A DNA stretch of 61,812 nt from Muribaculaceae bacterium (GTDB taxonomy: Bacteria > Bacteroidota > Bacteroidia > Bacteroidales > Muribaculaceae): assembly GCA_017473615.1 (NCBI GenBank), contig JAFUKL010000007.1, positions 1 to 61,812 of the forward strand, read 5' to 3'. The position numbers were made by a program, and so were the translations under genes. Under the pieces are notes generated by a model, which was not told where the DNA came from, made no database searches, and was given only the letters and a program-made list of their open reading frames with translations. This document shows positions 3,201-36,766 of this stretch, piece after piece; within the stretch, counting starts at the first letter, position 1, and each line of letters opens with the position of its first letter.

Positions 3201-3957
3201 CACCGGAGAAGGTGCAGATCGTAAGATGTTTATCTATGTTGAAGATCTTCCTGAAGGAAATGGAGGTAATAAACTTTATCGTTATGATATAGGTGCTGAA
3301 GATACATGGGGTGCTAAGGAGCCTGTTCAACTTGCTGATGCTTCGGCTAAACTTGTGAACACTAATACGGGTATGCTCGGAAGTGCATTGCACAATGTGG
3401 TGTTCTGTTCACAAACTCGTTATTCAGGCTCTAATACAGCAGGTGTACCTGCATTCATTGTTATTGATGAAGAAGGAAATATAATCTTCAATAGTGCTGA
3501 CTTGGTTGAAACTCTTGACGGTTGTCAAGGTGGTGGTATGGCACTTTCTACCGACGAAACTAAGTTTGCGATTGTTGACGGTAGTGCATCAATCCAAGTT
3601 TACGACGTAGAGTGGAATGAAAATGTGCCTTCATTCACTCATGTAACTTCTATCCCGACTAAGGATCAAGAAATATGCCAGATGTCATTCGACTATGCAG
3701 GTAACTTGCATTGCATCAATCGTAAACATGGTTACTTCGTTCATGCTGTTCCTTGTGATGTTCGTGACGTTGTAACTCCTGCTAAGACAGCTTCTGTTCT
3801 TACCGGTACAAAGGCAGCTTCAGGAATAGAAGAAGTGGATGCTGATGCTAATGCTCCTGTTGAGTACTACAACTTGCAGGGTGTGAAGGTTGCTAATCCT
3901 GAAAACGGTATCTTCATCAAGAAGCAAGGCAACAAAACCACAAAAGTGGTTCTATAA
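208..3957 (+). CDS. Large secreted N-acetylmuramoyl-L-alanine amidase-like protein with T9SS-type tail
   Basis: The start is set at ATG 208 because GGGAGG at 195-200 sits about 7 bases upstream and a clean signal peptide follows (MKMRKIFATAAMALCVAVASA, about 21 residues); an in-frame ATG at 193 has no such support. Residues about 28-290 look like an Amidase_3 domain: INPGHG near residue 32, FISIHSNAA near 170 and a later YLVEGYFH glutamate fit the zinc ligands and the catalytic Glu. A small carboxypeptidase-regulatory-like beta domain follows (about 295-390). The next roughly 750 residues are repetitive beta-rich sequence that I do not recognise. The last 30 residues (YYNLQGVKVANPENG then GIFIKK) look like a short type IX sorting tail. 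The predicted role is cell-wall or muropeptide cleavage at the surface. At 1249 residues it is far longer than ordinary amidases. Confidence 0.75.
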   Translation: MKMRKIFATAAMALCVAVASAQVAKEDVRIYINPGHGSWGPNNRHMATIGHNPISTADPDTTDFFESNTNLRKGLALLEKLHEYGVPFDKTKNQTNENPNRIGAALDLTQNLVMSHVKCGPYPYSTEKDPEGGHIIADQKNDFNRTLSVIAAEVEANDFDMFISIHSNAATDGNTVNYLYFAYDDDFTGNDKTLSIEMSRCGWNHRILDRHTQWSHYDYTMTAADVAAGKGKIGYQGLGVLNHSVSGYLVEGYFHTYQPARHRYMNFDMCRIEGVDYARGVADYFGWEKEKTGDIVGIVRDKHEKFSDAVYTPKAGTYDVYKPLNGVVVKLMKGEEEVAVDTTDVNYNGLFAFRNVEPGDYTVKFSHADYKADSVWTTDKAVEEVATSIPVTVKAAVTAYPTAFLENVAYVPAAVVYVNYPDSLADKGFALADEINIAGTAKTGLAEAVAGKTVRRTIVRDDYMYVLAVDAENKPYVYLFDVNTDALVKTLGTTATVGDILPLSDIALTAEGVLVGINKCNQAYGGSNNVTAYKWENGEDKLPEGEAQVWWTNNFAGNWSNGIAGETITYNGTLADGQFIYSGSSTAGGTRIVIAAVSEGQYLGYMRNNQDGTYLKTQYTGDTFNMILSPNADDQIIFDSETIMPFEIQLNPTDVGVPTILGHMAEGTVAVAANNASYFKYAGHSLMAVPALNAEGKVEGVKLFDITEGIANATEIVLAGASLAEPVEVAYASAHGELALTLDELSGITKSAEIELFLVADGNVTKFTTAGVKQPVYSGVYAYNLAASVAENTATVSFNLNDKSHKVSLVLTPVEEGAEEVVYEMGALQAGAHSYEVDLTQLAEGDYNWAVSVANKKIASGDMLTTMNTWGASGSTYYRGGVAVETNPESEYFGTAYLSVARSKGIFLLDPMYEVKAGAPYWAGSFNTGNSSSTFRGALYNDKFYVTDWSDAYPGIWIFDPANPTAINNIFAGATNDGKGKLTIDGVAVGGGSTGVAFTGEGADRKMFIYVEDLPEGNGGNKLYRYDIGAEDTWGAKEPVQLADASAKLVNTNTGMLGSALHNVVFCSQTRYSGSNTAGVPAFIVIDEEGNIIFNSADLVETLDGCQGGGMALSTDETKFAIVDGSASIQVYDVEWNENVPSFTHVTSIPTKDQEICQMSFDYAGNLHCINRKHGYFVHAVPCDVRDVVTPAKTASVLTGTKAASGIEEVDADANAPVEYYNLQGVKVANPENGIFIKKQGNKTTKVVL

Positions 3958-29003: not shown

Positions 29004-30467
29004 TTATCCTTTCTTGACCGGATCGCAAGTGAGACCTACACCGAGTTTCTTGAATATTTTGCGGTCGACTTCGCTTAACATTACGGTAGAATGAACTTGG
29101 CATCCTTTTAATTTCGGTAGTTGTTCAAGAGCCTTACGACAATTCTCGTCATGGTTGCTGAGTATTGATATAGCCACAAGTACTTCATCAGTATGTAGAC
29201 GAGGGTTATTTCCATGTAGGAACTCAACTTTGGTTTTTTGGATGGGTGAAATCATTTCTTCCGGAATTAATTTCACCTCATCGGATATTCCTGCAAGATA
29301 TTTAGTTGCATTAAGGATAAGGGCAGCACTTGGACCGAGTAACGCACTTGTACGTGCTGTTATGATGGTTCCGTCGTGAAGTTCTATGGCTGCGCTATGT
29401 ACACCGGAGAGCTTTTTCTTCTCTTGCGCTGCAACGGTAGTTCTGCGGTAGTCGGTCGTAAGTTTTGCTTGTTTCATTATAAGCGCAATCTTGTTGACCT
29501 CGTTTTCGTTGTTGCCTTTTGTCGCCAAATTACAAAGAGCATAGTAATATCTTCTGATGATTTCCTCTCTTGCAGCATTGCAACAGGCATCCTCGTCTTT
29601 CATGCAGAAACCTATCATGTTTACACCCATGTCGGTAGGTGATTTATAAGGGCTTTCACCGTATATCCCTTCGAAAAGAGCGTTCAGTACAGGGAAGATT
29701 TCAATATCGCGATTATAGTTGACAGCTATGTTACCGTATGTTTCAAGGTGGAACGGGTCTATCATGTTCACATCGTTGAGGTCGGCTGTAGCTGCCTCAT
29801 AAGCTATATTGACGGGATGTTTCAGAGGCAGATTCCACACAGGAAAAGTCTCGAATTTAGCATATCCTGCTTTTATTCCTCTTTTGTTTTCGTGGTAAAG
29901 TTGGCTTAGGCACACAGCCATTTTGCCGCTTCCAGGTCCCGGAGCAGTGACTACGACTAATGGGCGCTGTGTTTCTACGTAATCGTTCTTGCCGAAACCG
30001 TCATCGGAGTCTATTAATGCCACATTGTGAGGATAGCCGTCAATAGTGTAGTGATAGTAAACTTTTATGCCCAACCGTTCAAGGCGGTTGCGGTAGGCAT
30101 CGGCACTCGACTGTCCGTTATAGTGGGTTATGACAACACCTCCCACGAAAAGTCCTACTTTCTCAAATTCTGAGCGAAGTCGTAATACATCTTCATCGTA
30201 AGTGATACCTAAGTCGCTTCTCATTTTGTTTTTCTCAAGATCGATAGCACTTATAACCATTACAACTTCAGAATAGTCGCTTAACTGCATAAGCATGTGC
30301 AGTTTGCTGTCGGGCAGGAATCCCGGCAGCACACGGCTTGCGTGGTGGTCGTCAAATAACTTACCTCCGAATTCGAGGTATAATTTATCTCCGAATTGAG
30401 CAATTCGCTCTTTAATGCGTTCGGATTGTATCTTCAGATACTTTTCGTTGTCAAACCCTGTTTCCAT
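29004..30467 (-). CDS. DUF1846 (UPF0371) family protein
   Basis: The 487-residue protein begins METGFDNEKYLKIQSERIKERI and contains VVVTAPGPGSGKMAVCLSQLYHE, a phosphate-binding-like loop typical of the DUF1846 family. The biochemical function of the family is not settled. No signal peptide or membrane segment is visible. It is transcribed first in a two-gene reverse unit with the pseudouridine synthase and has a strong promoter at 30476-30506. Confidence 0.88.
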   Translation of the reverse strand: METGFDNEKYLKIQSERIKERIAQFGDKLYLEFGGKLFDDHHASRVLPGFLPDSKLHMLMQLSDYSEVVMVISAIDLEKNKMRSDLGITYDEDVLRLRSEFEKVGLFVGGVVITHYNGQSSADAYRNRLERLGIKVYYHYTIDGYPHNVALIDSDDGFGKNDYVETQRPLVVVTAPGPGSGKMAVCLSQLYHENKRGIKAGYAKFETFPVWNLPLKHPVNIAYEAATADLNDVNMIDPFHLETYGNIAVNYNRDIEIFPVLNALFEGIYGESPYKSPTDMGVNMIGFCMKDEDACCNAAREEIIRRYYYALCNLATKGNNENEVNKIALIMKQAKLTTDYRRTTVAAQEKKKLSGVHSAAIELHDGTIITARTSALLGPSAALILNATKYLAGISDEVKLIPEEMISPIQKTKVEFLHGNNPRLHTDEVLVAISILSNHDENCRKALEQLPKLKGCQVHSTVMLSEVDRKIFKKLGVGLTCDPVKKG

Positions 30468-30475
30468 AACGTATG

Positions 30476-30506
30476 CAAAGATAACTCATCATTCCAATTC
30501 ACACAA
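30476..30506 (-). promoter_or_regulatory. Promoter of the DUF1846 gene
   Basis: Read on the reverse strand, TTG (30506-30504), 20 bases and TATCTTTG (30483-30476) match the consensus. The DUF1846 start is 9 bases further, so the leader is very short. Confidence 0.7.
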
Positions 30507-30556: not shown

Positions 30557-30575
30557 TATCTTTGCCGTGGATAAT
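30557..30575. repeat. Left 19-bp direct repeat of the island
   Basis: TATCTTTGCCGTGGATAAT is identical to 36306-36324. The first 8 bases also match a -7 promoter element; the other 11 are not part of any consensus I know. The repeat runs into a palindrome, GGATAAT-ca-ATTATCC, at 30569-30584 that is present only at this end. Confidence 0.85.
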
Positions 30576-30709
30576 CAATTATCCCGTATCTGATTGATAT
30601 ACAGATAGCGAATGCTATGATAGAAAGTTGTTGGTAACGATTTGGCGCCTTCGAGATTGCACCAATTTTCTGCGTTATGCATGGCATAAAACAAGCTACA
30701 CCTCGGCAT
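30575..30709 (-). other. Island left terminus with a 44-codon protein-like frame
   Basis: The gene-free stretch 30468-30792 contains this reverse-strand frame starting ATG at 30709 (MPRCSLFYAMHNAENWC...) and stopping within the direct repeat. Its composition is protein-like rather than random. From general familiarity I believe similar short peptides occur as hypothetical proteins in many Bacteroidales genomes, which would make this a recurrent mobile-element end rather than a gene; this was not checked. The flank 30710-30792 contains GCTCTCGGTTTGCACTGTC and no other feature. Confidence 0.45.
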
Positions 30710-30792
30710 AATTAAAACAAGTTTTTATTCTGCTCTCGGTTTGCACTGTCTTTGTCAAACAACTCTTTTCTATGTCCTATTTTTAACTTGTC

Positions 30793-31599
30793 TTATTTCA
30801 ATAATCGTCTATTCTCAACCTCTTCTAAAACCTTCATTTGTTGAATAGCAATTTGGTTGAGTTTTATAAGTCTTTCACGTTGTGTAAGTCCTTCGTCAAT
30901 GAAAACCGCATTTAAGCTCTCCATATTTGATAGGCAAATGAGTTCGTTTATTGTTGCATAATCCCGAATATTACCTTTTAACTCAGGATTTGTTTCTCTC
31001 CACTGCTTTGCTGTCATACCGAACATTGCGACATTCAAGACATCTGCTTCATTGGCGTAAATAATACTTGCTTGTAATGCTGTAATTTCAGCAGGAACGA
31101 GATTTTGTTTTATTGCATCAGTATGTATATGATAATTGATTTTGGAAAGTTCTCTTTTTGCGGTCCATCCAATCAATTTCTGTTCTTCTTGTTTAAGTCT
31201 TTGGAATTCCTTGACAATATATAATTCAAACTCAACCGAAATCCAACTTGCAAACTTAAAAGCAATATCTTTATGGGCATAAGTTCCACCATATCTACCA
31301 GATTTGGAAATAATCCCTATGGCATTGGTAGCATTTATCCATTTCTGTGGAGAGAGTGTAAAAGCGTTCAATCCAGCTTCCTTTTTAAACCCCTCGAATT
31401 CGAGGGGGTTGAATTGAGGGTTATACAAACTTTCCCAAATCCCCAAGTATTCAATGGTATTTCGATTACGCATCCAATTACCAATAACTGCTGTAGGATC
31501 TTCACTCTTATGCTTCGCTATATCTGTCAATGAGATATAATCGTTTTCGTTTACTGATATTACGGTAACATTAGTATTTTGAACAGTAATCTTTGCCAT
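30793..31599 (-). CDS. KilA-N domain protein
   Basis: Residues about 15-130 form a KilA-N DNA-binding domain: YISLTDIAKHKSEDPTAVIG, then the family signature GRYGGTYAHKDIAFKFASWIS. The C-terminal half (about 135-268) is helical and ends in a coiled segment (LNQIAIQQMKVLEEVENR). KilA-N proteins are common in phage and in defence islands; the role here is unknown and could be regulation of the island or an anti-phage function. It is divergent from the XRE gene. Confidence 0.8.
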   Translation of the reverse strand: MAKITVQNTNVTVISVNENDYISLTDIAKHKSEDPTAVIGNWMRNRNTIEYLGIWESLYNPQFNPLEFEGFKKEAGLNAFTLSPQKWINATNAIGIISKSGRYGGTYAHKDIAFKFASWISVEFELYIVKEFQRLKQEEQKLIGWTAKRELSKINYHIHTDAIKQNLVPAEITALQASIIYANEADVLNVAMFGMTAKQWRETNPELKGNIRDYATINELICLSNMESLNAVFIDEGLTQRERLIKLNQIAIQQMKVLEEVENRRLLK

Positions 31600-31629
31600 A
31601 ATCTATATTTACTGATAAACTACGTAATG

Positions 31630-31660
31630 CAAAAATAGAAAGAATTTATGAGATACCCAA
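31630..31660 (-). promoter_or_regulatory. Promoter of the KilA-N gene
   Basis: On the reverse strand, TTG (31660-31658), 20 bases and TATTTTTG (31637-31630) match the consensus. The start is about 30 bases downstream. It lies back to back with the XRE promoter. Confidence 0.6.
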
Positions 31661-31670
31661 TAAAATTGTG

Positions 31671-31678
31671 TACCTTTG
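31671..31678 (+). promoter_or_regulatory. -7 element of the XRE/restriction-modification operon
   Basis: TACCTTTG matches the -7 consensus, 26 bases before the XRE start. No good -33 TTG is seen, which would fit an activated or repressed promoter. Confidence 0.5.
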
Positions 31679-31703
31679 CTTTTCATTAGATGATATTTCA
31701 GAT

Positions 31704-31913
31704 ATGAATAGGATAAAAGAGATGCTCGAATCAAAAGGAATTAGTCAAACTGAATTGGCAAGTTTATTAGGTAAGAGTTTTAATATGGTCAATTTGTATG
31801 CTACTAATAAAGTCCAACCCCCTATAGCTATTTTATATCAAATAGCTGAAATATTAAATGTAGACGTGAGAGAACTACTTGTACCAAGCAAAACAAATAG
31901 AAAAATTAAATAG
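31704..31913 (+). CDS. XRE-family helix-turn-helix regulator (C-protein-like)
   Basis: Taking ATG 31704, the protein has 69 residues and is essentially one XRE helix-turn-helix: MNRIKEMLESKGISQTELAS, recognition helix FNMVNLYATNK, and IAEILNVDVRELLV. A longer frame from 31668 would begin upstream of the promoter element. It ends 8 bases before the nuclease-methyltransferase gene, the arrangement seen for controller (C) proteins of restriction-modification systems. It probably times expression of the island. Confidence 0.85.
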   Translation: MNRIKEMLESKGISQTELASLLGKSFNMVNLYATNKVQPPIAILYQIAEILNVDVRELLVPSKTNRKIK

Positions 31914-31921
31914 TTTTCAAT

Positions 31922-34060
31922 ATGAAGATAACAGATATAATCAAAGGATCAGAGTATGACCTCAGCCTTTTCTCGGAAGATAAAATCTTGAAATTAGAAA
32001 ACAGACTTGTTGAAAGAAATACAAAGAAAGGATTGGATATGTATTTCACTTGTCTTGTTCGCAAAAAAGAGATTAAGGTAACACCCGAGGAAATTGTGCG
32101 ACAATTATATTTATTGGTGCTTACGGAAGATTTAGGTTATCCTGTATCTCGAATGGAACTTGAATATGAAGTTACTTTCGGCAGAGAAAAGAAACGAGCC
32201 GATATAGTTGTATTCGACAAACAACAGGTAACTTCTCCATTTATCATTGTGGAATTGAAGAAACCAAAATTAAAAGACGGTAAGGAGCAACTAAAAAGTT
32301 ATTGCAATGCAACCGGTGCTCCGATTGGAGTGTGGAGCAACGGACGCAGTATTTCATACTACCACCGAAAAGACCCTAATTATTTTGAGGATTTAAGTGG
32401 AATACCAAGAGCTGACCAAAAGCTTTCCGATATTTTATCGGAGCGATGGAAAATAGCCGATTTGATAAAAAAAGATAAATTGGTGAATGAGAGAAAATCT
32501 CTCAAGGATTTGATTCTTGAGATGGAAGATGAGGTCTTAGCTGGTGCTGGTGTTGATGTCTTTGAAGAGGTCTTTAAGTTGATTTTCACCAAATTGTTTG
32601 ATGAAATGGAAAGCGGGCGTAAACCAGACCGTAATTTAGAATTTAGAAATTATGGTGATACTGAAACAGAACTTAAAGATAAATTGCAGACCTTGTTTGA
32701 TAAGGCAAAGGACAAATGGCAAGGTGTATTTACCGATGATGCAAAAATATTACTTACCCCTTCACATCTGTCTGTGTGCGTTGCTTCACTGCAAGATGTC
32801 AAGTTGTTCAATTCAAATCTCGATGTCGTAGATGAAGCCTTTGAGTATCTGATAAACAAAAGTAGTAAGGGCGAAAAAGGTCAATATTTCACCCCTCGCT
32901 ATGTGATTGATATGTGCGTAAAGATGCTTAATCCAAGGTCTGACGAAAAAGTGATTGATACGGCTGCCGGTAGTTGCGGTTTTCCAGTGCATACAATCTT
33001 CCATGTTTGGCAGAATATTTTAGAATCAAAGGGATTGAAACGCAGTCATTTATTTACTTTGGAAGAAAAACCTGCCGAATGCAGTGATTATGTTCAAAAC
33101 AATGTGTTTGCCATGGACTTTGACGAAAAAGCTGTACGTGTAGCACGAACACTTAACTTGATAGCCGGTGACGGACAAACGAATGTGATGCACCTTAACA
33201 CATTGGATTACGAGCGTTGGGACGAATTTGTAAAAGATGAAAATTGGAATGATACATATTCCGATGGTTGGAGGAAATTGAAGAAATTGAGAGCTGCGAA
33301 AAATAGCAATAGGGATTTTACATTTGACATCGTCATGGCTAATCCGCCATTCGCTGGTGATGTAAAGGAAAGCAGAATACTCGCAAAGTATGATTTAAGT
33401 CGGAGCATCTCGTTAGAAAAGATTAAGAATGTTCCCAAAGATTGGAATATATCTTATGGAGAACCAACATATCCCGAAGCATTGAGCAATAGTGCCGAAA
33501 CTGTATATCAGATGAGTGACGGCACATTCCGCAAAACGAAGTTGAAACAGTCAACAACCATGAGTAGAGATGTGCTGTTCGTGGAGCGTAATCTTGATTT
33601 CTTAAAGCCGGGTGGTAGAATGGCGATTGTTCTTCCTCAAGGTCGTTTTAATAATAGTAGCGATAAGTTTCTACGAGAATATATATCAGACAGATGTCGA
33701 ATATTGGCAGTTGTCGGGCTGCATGGGAATGTGTTCAAACCTCATACCGGAACTAAGACAAGCGTCTTGTTTGTTCAGAAATGGGATGATGAACTATGCC
33801 CGAAAGTGGATGATTACAATATCTTCTTTGCGACCATGCAGGAATCAAGCAAAGATAACAGCGGAGATAAGATATATCGAAATACCACCGATGAGGAAGG
33901 GAATAATGTACCATTACTTGACAGTCATGGGCATCTAATCGTTAAACACGATTTGTTTAACCACGACGGACTAACAGGTGATGGTATTGCCGAAGCCTTT
34001 GCCGAGTTTGCCAAGAAGGAGAAATTATCTTTTTTCGTGGATGCCCCTTTGATGAAGTAA
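31922..34060 (+). CDS. Single-chain restriction nuclease-DNA methyltransferase (BcgI-like/HsdM-type)
   Basis: The first 160 residues look like a type I HsdR N-terminal nuclease domain: RADIVVFD and FIIVELKKPK give the PD-(D/E)xK residues. Residues about 200-700 are an HsdM-type N6-adenine methyltransferase: GQYFTPRYVIDMCVKML, SAM-binding VIDTAAGSCGF, and the catalytic DIVMANPPFAGD. No HsdR helicase gene is present, so cleavage would be by the fused nuclease, as in type IIB/IIG BcgI-like enzymes, with specificity from the downstream S subunits. At 712 residues it is longer than HsdM alone. The 3' end overlaps the open frame of the first S gene. Confidence 0.85.
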   Translation: MKITDIIKGSEYDLSLFSEDKILKLENRLVERNTKKGLDMYFTCLVRKKEIKVTPEEIVRQLYLLVLTEDLGYPVSRMELEYEVTFGREKKRADIVVFDKQQVTSPFIIVELKKPKLKDGKEQLKSYCNATGAPIGVWSNGRSISYYHRKDPNYFEDLSGIPRADQKLSDILSERWKIADLIKKDKLVNERKSLKDLILEMEDEVLAGAGVDVFEEVFKLIFTKLFDEMESGRKPDRNLEFRNYGDTETELKDKLQTLFDKAKDKWQGVFTDDAKILLTPSHLSVCVASLQDVKLFNSNLDVVDEAFEYLINKSSKGEKGQYFTPRYVIDMCVKMLNPRSDEKVIDTAAGSCGFPVHTIFHVWQNILESKGLKRSHLFTLEEKPAECSDYVQNNVFAMDFDEKAVRVARTLNLIAGDGQTNVMHLNTLDYERWDEFVKDENWNDTYSDGWRKLKKLRAAKNSNRDFTFDIVMANPPFAGDVKESRILAKYDLSRSISLEKIKNVPKDWNISYGEPTYPEALSNSAETVYQMSDGTFRKTKLKQSTTMSRDVLFVERNLDFLKPGGRMAIVLPQGRFNNSSDKFLREYISDRCRILAVVGLHGNVFKPHTGTKTSVLFVQKWDDELCPKVDDYNIFFATMQESSKDNSGDKIYRNTTDEEGNNVPLLDSHGHLIVKHDLFNHDGLTGDGIAEAFAEFAKKEKLSFFVDAPLMK

Positions 34061-34084
34061 AGTATCAGACTTTGTTGGAGGGGC
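34030..34084 (+). promoter_or_regulatory. Candidate -1 ribosomal frameshift signal
   Basis: In the methyltransferase frame T TTT TTC (34030-34036) is a classical X XXY YYZ heptamer. Six bases later GCCCCT (34043-34048) pairs with AGGGGC (34079-34084); five weaker pairs extend the stem to 34053/34074. The -1 frame is open from here into the S gene, giving ...RGCPFDEVKYQTLLEGLEA. The stem also covers the TTG codons proposed as S starts, so it may instead control initiation. Confidence 0.4.
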
Positions 34085-35445
34085 TGGAAGCAGTTGAAAT
34101 AACACTTGATAAATGCATAAATAATAAAGATTATAGAATTGATAGTGATTTTTACACAAAAGCACCTATTATAAATCCAAACCTTTCTTACAAAAAAATT
34201 GGAGATTGTATATCATTCTCTCAATATGGGATTTCTATTGCGATGAATGAAAATCGACAAGGTATCCCTATATATAGAATGAATGAGATTCATAATTTGC
34301 TTTGTGATTTAAACGTTTCTAAATATGCAGAAGTAAGTGATGACGAATTTACAACATTTAAACTAAATAATAAAGATGTATTGTTCAATAGGACCAATTC
34401 TTATGAATGGGTTGGCAGAACTGGAATATACTATCAAAATGACAGTATAGATAAAGTTTTTGCTTCCTATCTTGTCCGGTTTGTTCCAAATTCTAAAATT
34501 ATACTACCAGAATATCTTGCAACATATTTAAATACGAAGCAGGGGATATGGGATATTAAAAGAAGGGCAAGACAATCTATTAATCAAACAAATGTAAATC
34601 CGGAAGAAGTAAAAGAGATTCTAATTCCGATTCTTCCTATGGTATTGCAGGAGCAGATAGCAGAAAAACTTCAAACAGCCAATCAGCATAGGATAGAGTC
34701 TAACACACTATATAAAGATGCCGAATCATATCTATTGGAGTGTTTGGGAATGAAAGATTTTGCTGCTGAACCGAATGCCTACAACACATTATCGTTGAAA
34801 GAGTCATTCTTAGAAACAGGACGTTTTGATGCCGAATATTACTTACCCAAATATGAAGACTATTGCAAGTTGATTCTATCTTACTCTAATGGCTATGAAC
34901 TGTTGAAAACAGCTTGTGATATATCAGACATCAATTATACGCCCGAAGTTGGGCAACTATATAAGTATGTGGAACTTGCCGATATTGGTAAATCTGGAGA
35001 AATTACTGGTTGTGATGTTATGAATGGAGAGGATTTGCCAACCCGTGCTCGCAGAATGATTCATACTAATGATGTCATAGTATCATCCATTGAAGGGTCA
35101 TTGGATAGTTGCGCATTAGTAACTGACGATTACGACGGTGCATTATGTTCCACAGGTTTTCATGTGTTGCAATCATCTAAACTGAATCCCGAAACATTGC
35201 TGACATTATTCAAATCCTTGCCTATTCAGCAATTGATGAAAAAAGGTTGTTCGGGAACAATCCTAACAGCTATAAATAAGTTCGAATTGGAAAAACTACC
35301 GATTCCCATTATCAGAACTGAAATACAACAAGAGATAGCCAAACATATTAGACAAAGTTTTGCTCTAAGAAAAGAAGCGTTGCAATTACTTGAGAATGCA
35401 AAACTTACCGTAGAACAATTAATTGAAATTGGGGGTAATTGTTGA
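34072..35445 (+). CDS. Specificity (S) subunit, two target-recognition domains
   Basis: The protein has the layout of HsdS: first recognition domain (about 1-195), a central helical conserved region (QEQIAEKLQTANQHR), second recognition domain starting ETGRFDAEYYLPKYED (about 252) and a final conserved helix (HIRQSFALRKEALQLLENAK). It gives DNA sequence specificity to the fused nuclease-methyltransferase. No ATG or GTG exists before residue 58; the frame begins at TTG 34072 or 34075, or is entered by frameshifting from the preceding gene, whose end the frame overlaps. The gene is about 457 residues if TTG is used. Confidence 0.82.
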   Translation: MLEGLEAVEITLDKCINNKDYRIDSDFYTKAPIINPNLSYKKIGDCISFSQYGISIAMNENRQGIPIYRMNEIHNLLCDLNVSKYAEVSDDEFTTFKLNNKDVLFNRTNSYEWVGRTGIYYQNDSIDKVFASYLVRFVPNSKIILPEYLATYLNTKQGIWDIKRRARQSINQTNVNPEEVKEILIPILPMVLQEQIAEKLQTANQHRIESNTLYKDAESYLLECLGMKDFAAEPNAYNTLSLKESFLETGRFDAEYYLPKYEDYCKLILSYSNGYELLKTACDISDINYTPEVGQLYKYVELADIGKSGEITGCDVMNGEDLPTRARRMIHTNDVIVSSIEGSLDSCALVTDDYDGALCSTGFHVLQSSKLNPETLLTLFKSLPIQQLMKKGCSGTILTAINKFELEKLPIPIIRTEIQQEIAKHIRQSFALRKEALQLLENAKLTVEQLIEIGGNC

Positions 35446-36212
35446 TAATCAATAAATTACAAAATAAGGCTATTAAGGAGTTTAGAACTGCAATATGGCT
35501 GTTACTTGTAGAAATAGGTATAGTTACTGAAAATAATGCCAATAATAACATTGTTACCACCACAAAGAAATTATCGGATAGCTTTCTTTGTAGCGGGCGA
35601 TTTGACGCTGAATATTATCAACCTAAATATGATTATCTATTCAAAAAGTTATCTGATTATGAGACTTTAGCACTTGGCGATTTAGTAGATATTCATAAAT
35701 CGATTGAGCCAGGAAGTGATGCTTATTGTGATAGTGGCATTCCATTTGTTCGTGTGTCCGATTTATCCAAATTTGGTTTGTCAGAAACAAGAATATTTTT
35801 AGACAAAGAAAATTATTCAGATGTGATACGTCCTACAAAGGATACAATTCTTTTATCAAAAGACGGTAGTGTTGGCATTGCATATAAAGCTGAAGAGAGC
35901 CTTGAAGTTATCACTTCCGGTGCAATCCTTCATTTAAAAATTAAAAGTACTAAAGTGCAACCCGATTATTTAACATTAGTTATAAATTCCATTGTTGTGC
36001 AACTACAAGCTGAACGCGCTGCTGGTGGCTCAATCATTCAGCATTGGAAATCATCGGAAATAGAGAAAGTACAAATCCCAATCTTGCCATTGGATATTCA
36101 GACTGAGATTTCTAACAAAATTCGTCATAGTTTTGCTTTACGAAAAGAAAGCCTACAACTATTGGAACAGGCTAAATCATTTGTAGAACAATCGATAGAA
36201 ATATGTAATTAA
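35439..36212 (+). CDS. Half-size specificity subunit, one target-recognition domain
   Basis: From about residue 50 it repeats the second half of the preceding S subunit: CSGRFDAEYYQPKYDYLF, a different recognition domain, then KIRHSFALRKESLQLLEQAK. It is therefore a duplicated half S gene with an alternative recognition domain. There is no ATG or GTG; the frame opens after TAA at 35436-35438 and its TTG at 35442 overlaps the previous stop (TTGA), which suggests termination-reinitiation. The first 40 residues have no counterpart in the first S subunit. It may dimerise as a half-subunit or act as a spare domain for recombination. Confidence 0.7.
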   Translation: MLIINKLQNKAIKEFRTAIWLLLVEIGIVTENNANNNIVTTTKKLSDSFLCSGRFDAEYYQPKYDYLFKKLSDYETLALGDLVDIHKSIEPGSDAYCDSGIPFVRVSDLSKFGLSETRIFLDKENYSDVIRPTKDTILLSKDGSVGIAYKAEESLEVITSGAILHLKIKSTKVQPDYLTLVINSIVVQLQAERAAGGSIIQHWKSSEIEKVQIPILPLDIQTEISNKIRHSFALRKESLQLLEQAKSFVEQSIEICN

Positions 36213-36323
36213 TTATCCAGACTTTGGAGGGATAAGTTCGCGGAATGCGGTAAGGTTTTCGGGAATCTTCACACCCGTTTCGCACTCACTTTCGTTTCTT
36301 TGTTGTATCTTTGCCGTGGATAA
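36213..36323 (-). other. Island right terminus with a 36-codon protein-like open frame
   Basis: Immediately tail to tail with the half S gene, the reverse strand has an open stretch of 36 codons ending TAA at 36213-36215. It reads STAKIQQRNESECETGVK and then KIPENLTAFRELIPPKSG. It has no start codon, so it is not a normal gene. Its far end lies inside the 19-bp direct repeat. It is either a remnant gene end or a recurrent mobile-element terminus; I believe related peptides occur elsewhere in Bacteroidales, unchecked. Confidence 0.4.
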
Positions 36324-36324
36324 T
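36306..36324. repeat. Right 19-bp direct repeat of the island
   Basis: Identical to 30557-30575. Its TATCTTTG half lies about 50 bases before the FKBP start and is the likely -7 element of that gene, although no -33 TTG is seen at the proper distance. Confidence 0.85.
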
Positions 36325-36358: not shown

Positions 36359-36766
36359 ATGGCAAAGAAACTTGATGTGAAATATGTGGCGGAATGTCGC
36401 CGGTTTCTGGAAGAGATGGCAGCTCAGCCCGATGTGAGAAATGTGAGTAAGGGTGTGCTTATGCGGTATATAGAACATGGTAAGGGAGAAGTGTGTCCCC
36501 GCTCTAACAATGTAATCACGGTGAAATACCGTGGTACTCTTATCGATGGTACTGAATTTGATTCGAATATGAGTGATGCCTACCCTGCGGCATTCAGATT
36601 AAAAGACCTTATCGTTGGATGGCAGATCGTGCTTACGCAGATGCGTGCCGGCGATAAAGTGATGGCATATATACCATCGGAATTCGGCTATGGCGACCGC
36701 AGAGAAGGCAATATTCCGGGAGGTTCAACGCTTATTTTTGAAATTCATCTTGTAGAGGTTCATTGA
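36359..36766 (+). CDS. FKBP-type peptidyl-prolyl isomerase
   Basis: The C-terminal 90 residues are an FKBP domain: VITVKYRGTLIDGTEFDSN, GWQIVLTQMRAGDKVMAYIP, FGYGDRREGNIPGGSTLIFEI. The active-site aromatic and the GYG loop are kept. No signal peptide is visible (MAKKLDVKYVAECRRF), so it should be cytoplasmic, unlike many Bacteroidales FKBPs that are lipoproteins. It assists proline isomerisation during folding. The ATG at 36359 lies just after the right repeat of the island. Confidence 0.9.
   Translation: MAKKLDVKYVAECRRFLEEMAAQPDVRNVSKGVLMRYIEHGKGEVCPRSNNVITVKYRGTLIDGTEFDSNMSDAYPAAFRLKDLIVGWQIVLTQMRAGDKVMAYIPSEFGYGDRREGNIPGGSTLIFEIHLVEVH

Follow-up and report, generated by a model that had tools for sequence, protein, structure and literature searches.

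Described systems close to the island

Restriction-modification (R-M) systems are known to move, and their mode of movement without a recombinase is often unexplained. In this work, an R-M island was analysed in a stretch of 61,812 nucleotides from a Muribaculaceae bacterium (contig JAFUKL010000007.1, positions 1 to 61,812; hereafter the window), which is contig C43 of a draft assembly (G000) of 2.0 Mb in 51 contigs and 78% complete. The island lies between two copies of a direct repeat, and the unit excised at the repeat would be 30557-36305, of 5,749 bp. We consider it highly probable, from comparison of its ends, that the island is a site-specifically integrated element flanked by attachment (att) sites, non-autonomous because it lacks an integrase, and a member of a family defined by common ends. 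No description of this family was found among the best-matching open-access papers.

According to PMC5704250, cis-mobilizable elements (CIMEs) keep attL and attR but have lost the genes for integration and transfer, and they are decayed integrative and conjugative elements (ICEs) or integrative and mobilizable elements (IMEs) that lie in tandem with another element. The island resembles a CIME in keeping both attL and attR, with no integration or transfer genes among its family-matched open reading frames (ORFs). It differs in having chromosomal genes on both sides and no tandem partner, its possible helpers lying elsewhere in the genome, and in that two integrase-less copies share a derived left end (LE). 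As for descent from an ICE or IME, the integrase-bearing sibling is cut by contig ends, and the parts read carry no transfer gene. Elements of the SGI1 type encode their own integrase and borrow conjugation, whereas the island would borrow the integrase. Hitcher elements depend on helpers (PMC11389934), SGI1 being an example, and it is in the helper dependence in trans proposed here that the island resembles them.

CTnDOT is a conjugative transposon. Its integrase IntDOT, a tyrosine recombinase with an arm-binding domain, uses a target core GTANNTTTGC, after which comes a coupling sequence that varies. The element-side core at the right end (RE) of the island, GTATCTTTGC, fits GTANNTTTGC, and the host cores TTATCTTTGC, ATTATCTTTGC and CTATCCTTGC fit it only loosely. 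A variable spacer (CGT, CTA, AAA, GAAC or CCC) likewise lies beside the core, and the integrase on contig C16 of the same genome resembles IntDOT in its arm-binding domain, in a comparison by domain make-up only. In contrast to CTnDOT, the present elements are defence cassettes of about 6-8 kb, and the island ORFs include no conjugation module. Thus, the island seems to work like a CIME or another helper-dependent element, and to choose its targets like CTnDOT. It is classed as neither, because ICE or IME ancestry and homology to IntDOT are not established, and neither a tandem partner nor a conjugation module was found.

Two further systems are similar. R-M units of Helicobacter insert with a long target duplication, and the island is likewise an R-M unit between direct repeats without a recombinase; however, it has conserved ends and a spacer that differs with each insertion, and the sequence repeated at its ends is an att core. 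Type IIB systems like BcgI, which cut on both sides of their recognition site, carry a nuclease and an N6 methyltransferase in one chain with a separate specificity (S) subunit. The island has the same fused nuclease-N6 methyltransferase and S subunit, but it adds an extra S ORF as well as helix-turn-helix (HTH) and KilA-N genes.

The repeat, the ends and the target promoters

The repeat TATCTTTGCCGTGGATAAT is found at 30557-30575 (attL) and at 36306-36324 (attR), both on the + strand, as a perfect 19-bp direct repeat. An earlier reading of the sequence alone had called it unique in the window, the DNA outside it unrelated and chance identity unlikely, and all of this holds: even at 3 mismatches the window contains no third copy, no block match joins the two copies past the 19 bp on either side, and 100 shuffles of the window gave 0.05 occurrences on average and in no case two (0/100). 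Nor is the 19-mer common at promoters, which that reading had named as a possible objection. The whole assembly holds one extra place with up to 2 mismatches (it has 2), and only 2 of 99 genomes, the own genome included, have the 19-mer with at most 1 mismatch. The shorter motif TANNTTTGC occurs 32 times in the window against 15.5 expected, and GGATAAT (at least 5 of 7 matching) follows it 3-4 bp downstream in the two repeat copies and at 0 of the 30 other sites. Neither chance nor a plain duplication of a promoter accounts for the repeat, which looks like an attachment site. The GC content of the island is 35.9%, and that of flank windows of equal length (n = 90, overlapping) averages 40.7% (sd 3.0); composition alone is little proof, because the island is only about 1.6 sd from its flanks.

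The site of insertion is visible in relatives. In the window, a DUF1846 protein gene (29004-30467, - strand; PF08903, 5.5e-177) lies to the left and a gene for an FKBP-type prolyl isomerase (36359-36766, + strand; PF00254, 7.4e-22) to the right. An empty site had been predicted, and it is found in both congeners, G001 and G002 (2/2), where the two genes are divergent and directly adjacent and the island is absent. The DUF1846 and FKBP proteins of the window are 88-90% and 81-84% identical to theirs, and their intergenic regions, of about 114 and 124 bp, have a -7 box before each gene. When joined at one repeat, the flanks of the window can be aligned with these intergenic regions, the agreement being closest at the -7 boxes and on the side of DUF1846. 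The target is thus the native promoter of FKBP, a housekeeping gene. On the opposite strand, the DUF1846 promoter was untouched by the insertion; its -7 box TATCTTTGC (30475-30483, - strand) lies outside the element and is conserved in the alignment of G001 and G002. Because DUF1846 has this box of its own, the empty site is a divergent intergenic region. Removal of the island would join DUF1846 and FKBP, as had been expected, but with two -7 boxes between them and not the predicted single one. In Bacteroides, the published -7 consensus for the primary sigma factor is TAnnTTTG (PMC7366714). This consensus fixes six bases of the 19-mer, and not eight as first counted, and the earlier proposal of recombination at a site serving also as a promoter holds.

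Both ends of the island recur elsewhere. When the left 241 bp were searched as DNA against 99 genomes, the places found besides the window were contig C11 of G007 (90% over 207 bp), a genome of another genus in the same family, and own contig C29 (90% over 112 bp), together with weaker or partial matches. Pattern searches of 297 genomes of the family, with up to 3 mismatches, placed the LE at 4 places in 3 genomes and the RE at 12 places in 9 genomes, 6 of the places having the exact 33-mer; the genus of G007 (12 genomes) had no RE beyond these 12. The LE (30569-30766, + strand), taken with its core, is 90.6% identical to that of G007 over 212 bp, and 88-89% over about 124 bp to those of C29 and of contig C17 of G128. 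The RE (36274-36314, + strand), which ends in a promoter-like tail and the core GTATCTTTGC, matches G007 at 100% over 40 bp, and a conserved block near it (36210-36264, + strand) is 84-89% identical in G007, C16 and G077. In pairwise alignments of the four LEs, agreement starts at the core TATC(T/C)TTGC, within 3 bp, in 4/4, and their left flanks are not alike, the one in C29 itself resembling an RE; the REs agree up to the core and diverge past it. Since conservation stops at the core on both sides, the island has true termini, and the repeat appears to be made of three units: TATCTTTGC (9), the spacer CGT (3) and GGATAAT (7). In attL the core is the host's (30557-30565), and in attR the core is that of the element and GGATAAT lies on the host side.

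Each left junction has its own spacer between core and GGATAAT: CGT in the window, CTA in G007, AAA in G128, GAAC in C29 and CCC in G036, the last having a divergent LE (6/35 mismatches) cut by a contig end. All seven RE places with 0-1 mismatch have a second family feature nearby, namely an LE, integrase sequence, the conserved block or a defence gene. In the last 31 bases of the RE, CACTCACTTTCGTTTCTTTGTTGTATCTTTG, at most one base varies among the 10 copies tabulated, which leave out G155 and G020 (3 mismatches in the 33-mer). A DNA hairpin across the RE scored no better than shuffles (z -0.39), and neither a 27-bp piece of the RE nor the LE pattern had an exact match in a viral collection. 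On C29 (L149 3716-3787) an RE is followed after 4 bp by an LE, which is either a tandem junction or an insertion into an old RE scar. The conserved block runs on in C16 (L167 830-1240) and in G077 into palindrome-rich sequence, AGGTTTTGAGT..ACTCAAAACAT.

Where loci could be compared, the insertions are at -7 promoter boxes, those of fkbp, ksgA, rbfA and surE. For ksgA, the LE (C17) and RE (C25) of G128 adjoin genes that are divergent neighbours in G142, where the site is empty and TATCTTTGC stands before ksgA; the left neighbour in G128 lies beside ksgA in 1 of 11 other genomes (G142), the other 10 being without it within the locus examined. For rbfA, own contigs C29 (an O-methyltransferase gene, a further gene and the LE) and C6 (the RE and rbfA) flank one site. 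The O-methyltransferase gene adjoins rbfA in three of the six other genomes examined (G002, G007 and G034), and in G001 the rbfA promoter is empty and carries GTATCTTTGC. For surE, the upstream region was read in 5 of 12 genomes, the search motif having missed 7. Two of the five, G208 and G034, carry TACATTTGC at the position of the RE of G007, and G155 reads differently; a clean empty site is not established, because in G007, unlike in G208 and G034, rpoC is not upstream. The surE upstream region of G111 (L205) has the promoter TATCTTTGT, with TTTCATTTCTTTGTTGTATCTTTGT close to the RE tail, and no element was recognised beside it.

We hypothesize that the integrase joins the element to the -7 box (G)TATCTTTGC before a host gene. 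The left junction retains the -7 box of the host, and the right junction supplies the constant tail ...CACTCACTTTCGTTTCTTTGTTGTATCTTTGC and so re-creates a -7 box for the downstream gene, which may therefore stay transcribed. This would suggest why promoters are usable as targets. The RE tail may thus be a working promoter with a double role as an integrase site.

Sibling integrases and alternative explanations

The description of the island as an R-M island without a recombinase was confirmed by the domain matches of its ORFs. All five family-matched ORFs of 30793-36212 are KilA-N, HTH, R-M, S and S genes, with no recombinase, transfer gene or conjugation module among them, and the integrase of the sibling on C16 gave no tblastn match in the window at E values up to 1. 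On C16, an RE lies about 330 bp from the gene of a 411-aa tyrosine integrase (Arm-DNA-bind_5, Phage_int_SAM_5 and Phage_integrase), which is situated between the conserved block (777-829) and the RE (3511-3543); in the window the gap between block and RE is 9 bp. The segment from the integrase start to the RE recurs at the ends of own contig C6 (93% over 428 bp) and of contig C25 of G128 (90.5% over 464 bp). Past the integrase, C16 encodes a 145-aa protein (L167 1525-1962) and then a TmtA-like gene (L167 1-603) cut by the contig start. The 145-aa protein has a weak match to the PADLOC candidate PDC-S05 (3.3e-10).

Other members carry other cargo. Between its LE and RE, G007 carries the mod (PADLOC MTase_III, 5.1e-106) and res (Pfam ResIII, 6.3e-20) genes of a type III R-M system, together with genes for a small protein and a Schlafen/AlbA_2 protein, and this element has no match to the C16 integrase better than E 0.9. 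In G077, an RE before aroQ adjoins a type II system, in which PADLOC recognises a restriction enzyme and two methyltransferases. Cargo is readable at 4 of the 12 REs (window, G007, G077 and C16) and includes defence genes at all four; two more REs (C6 and G128) are cut within the integrase, and one (C29) directly abuts an LE.

The ends thus appear to belong to a family of small integrative elements, some of which carry a tyrosine integrase beside the RE. Candidate helpers in trans are the complete integrase by the same RE on C16 and a second copy, inside which C6 starts. The C16 integrase may act on the ends of the island, and mobilisation of the island in trans by a sibling integrase is, on present comparisons, somewhat favoured. 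The sequence-only reading had suggested such mobilisation, which now has the support of a sibling tyrosine integrase by the same RE in the own genome. The ends, the target rule and a candidate integrase in trans are all visible in one genome, and the ends can serve as a search key for more defence cassettes in related bacteria.

Several points weigh against this interpretation. Neither an excised circle nor movement was observed, and the evidence comes from an assembly that is 78% complete. No integrase-bearing member is whole on one contig, LE and integrase being linked only via neighbouring genes (C29 with C6, and C17 with C25), and the own genome has, at E values up to 1e-80, one integrase of this kind (C16), the C6 copy being truncated where its contig begins. 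Inspection by eye of G077 as far as rnhB revealed no recognisable LE. At 5 of the 12 REs (G199, G153, G166, G155 and G020, with 2-3 mismatches) other genes follow and no element was recognised, as judged from ORFs without a domain search. G199 retains a flank that C16 has between integrase and end, and G166 shows a weaker likeness, so some of these places are probably scars; the remaining ones may be ordinary promoters. In addition, 20 distant relatives of the integrase (35-59% identity, 61 genomes, besides C16) had no RE-like sequence below 12 mismatches of 33, the limit of the search, within up to about 1.5 kb per side at any of 20 loci. The RE therefore seems confined to a narrow group of integrases. 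Finally, of 11 right junctions only two (window and G077; C29 was left out because an LE follows) have GGATAAT after the core, so a perfect 19-bp repeat is not a rule of the family, and the inference of a common lineage given below rests on four LEs.

The alternative that survives best differs only in the step in trans: the island would have been inserted by an integrase of its own that was later lost in place, leaving it immobile now. The position of the C16 integrase is in line with such decay, as the 9 bp found in the window between conserved block and RE look as if a module had been deleted there. However, both ends are intact in the window and G007 elements, and these two, from different genera and with unrelated cargo, are both integrase-less and have the same 70-bp insert (30680-30749, + strand) at the same point of the LE, which is simplest if the loss predated their split. 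We regard decay in place as unlikely. The LEs of C29 and G128, attributed to integrase-bearing elements via their neighbours, are without the insert and otherwise about 88% identical on the core side. Pieces like the insert are dispersed in other genomes, and therefore its gain is likelier than its loss. This suggests that one integrase-less ancestor spread and changed its cargo, and such a spread would imply help in trans. An origin of the shared insert in unsampled integrase-bearing elements, or in recombination between elements, could give the same picture. The insert ends in a promoter-like CGGTTTGCACTGTCTTTG, and similar stretches occur in other genomes of the family, several each in G070, G030 and G065.

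More tentatively, the island may represent a self-sustaining integrase-less lineage of defence cassettes, with standard ends, swappable R-M genes, sibling integrases and a portable promoter in the RE; this is a possibility we hold below an even chance. If true, the portable promoter would make landing in the promoter of an essential gene tolerable, and the lineage would be a promoter-targeting analogue of gene cassettes.

A separate question, compatible with integration in trans, is why the repeat reaches 19 bp here, given that the repeat of G007 is limited to the 9-bp core TATCTTTGC. The GGATAAT that follows the core on the right could be the remnant of the LE of a lost neighbouring element, left by tandem accretion, as C29 has an RE directly followed by an LE, a variant LE in G036 reads GGATAATTAAA, and the FKBP leader, counted from core to ATG, is longer in the window (44 bp) than in the congeners (24 and 21 bp). 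But the homology stops after about 10 bp, and an integrase preference for targets matching its own right half (GGATAAT-like) explains the 19 bp equally well, GGATAAT being present also in G077. We give accretion a low probability.

It is very improbable that the 19 bp are a target duplication made when an R-M unit inserted. A perfect direct repeat around an R-M unit without a recombinase would suit such an event, but the ends are conserved at unrelated loci, G007 repeats only the core, and the left core of G128, TATCCTTGC, is one base off its right core, unlike a fresh duplication; this explanation was rejected, as conserved element ends contradict it. Least probable of all, and also rejected, are two look-alike ordinary promoters between which R-M genes were gained by other means: TATCTTTGC fits a -7 box, TANNTTTGC is in excess in the window and some RE-like sequences precede genes without an element, but none of the 30 other TANNTTTGC sites has GGATAAT at the right distance, and LE and RE recur together around other cargo, as in G007.

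Cargo genes and their relatives

The cargo combines a KilA-N protein and a regulator with a nuclease-methyltransferase that is a single protein and has specificity subunits. The KilA-N gene (30793-31599, - strand; PF04383, 1.4e-24) also matches the PADLOC candidate PDC-S22 (2.4e-136). It is followed on the + strand by an HTH_3 (Cro/C1) regulator (31668-31913; PF01381, 2e-11), the fused nuclease-methyltransferase of 712 aa (HSDR_N_2 and N6_Mtase; 31922-34060; PF13588, 1.6e-28, and PF02384, 4e-30), the specificity subunit S1 of 457 aa (34072-35445; PF01420, 1.6e-14) and a second specificity ORF, S2, of 257 aa (35439-36212; PF01420, 2.8e-11). The R-M system may be active.

At 1e-100, the fused methyltransferase is found in 1 of the 297 family genomes. 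Relatives of 85-90% identity occur in Phocaeicola coprocola, Bacteroides fragilis, Xylanibacter caecicola and three other genomes, from the 80 of 331 matches retained; 162 plasmid records match it, the best at 63% identity. These relatives and the promoter type point to a placement in Bacteroidales. LE and RE, with up to 9 mismatches each, are absent from the flanks examined of these 80 of 331. Six of the methyltransferase loci were compared gene by gene: S genes lie downstream in five and the HTH gene upstream in three, and none of the six has a match to the KilA-N gene. S1 and S2 are two overlapping ORFs in the window (34072-36212) and in P. coprocola (L068), and B. fragilis and Xylanibacter (L070 12085-14295; L071 12046-14286) have a single open frame for S, of about 740 codons. 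In these one-frame relatives, the specificity protein apparently has three target-recognition halves.

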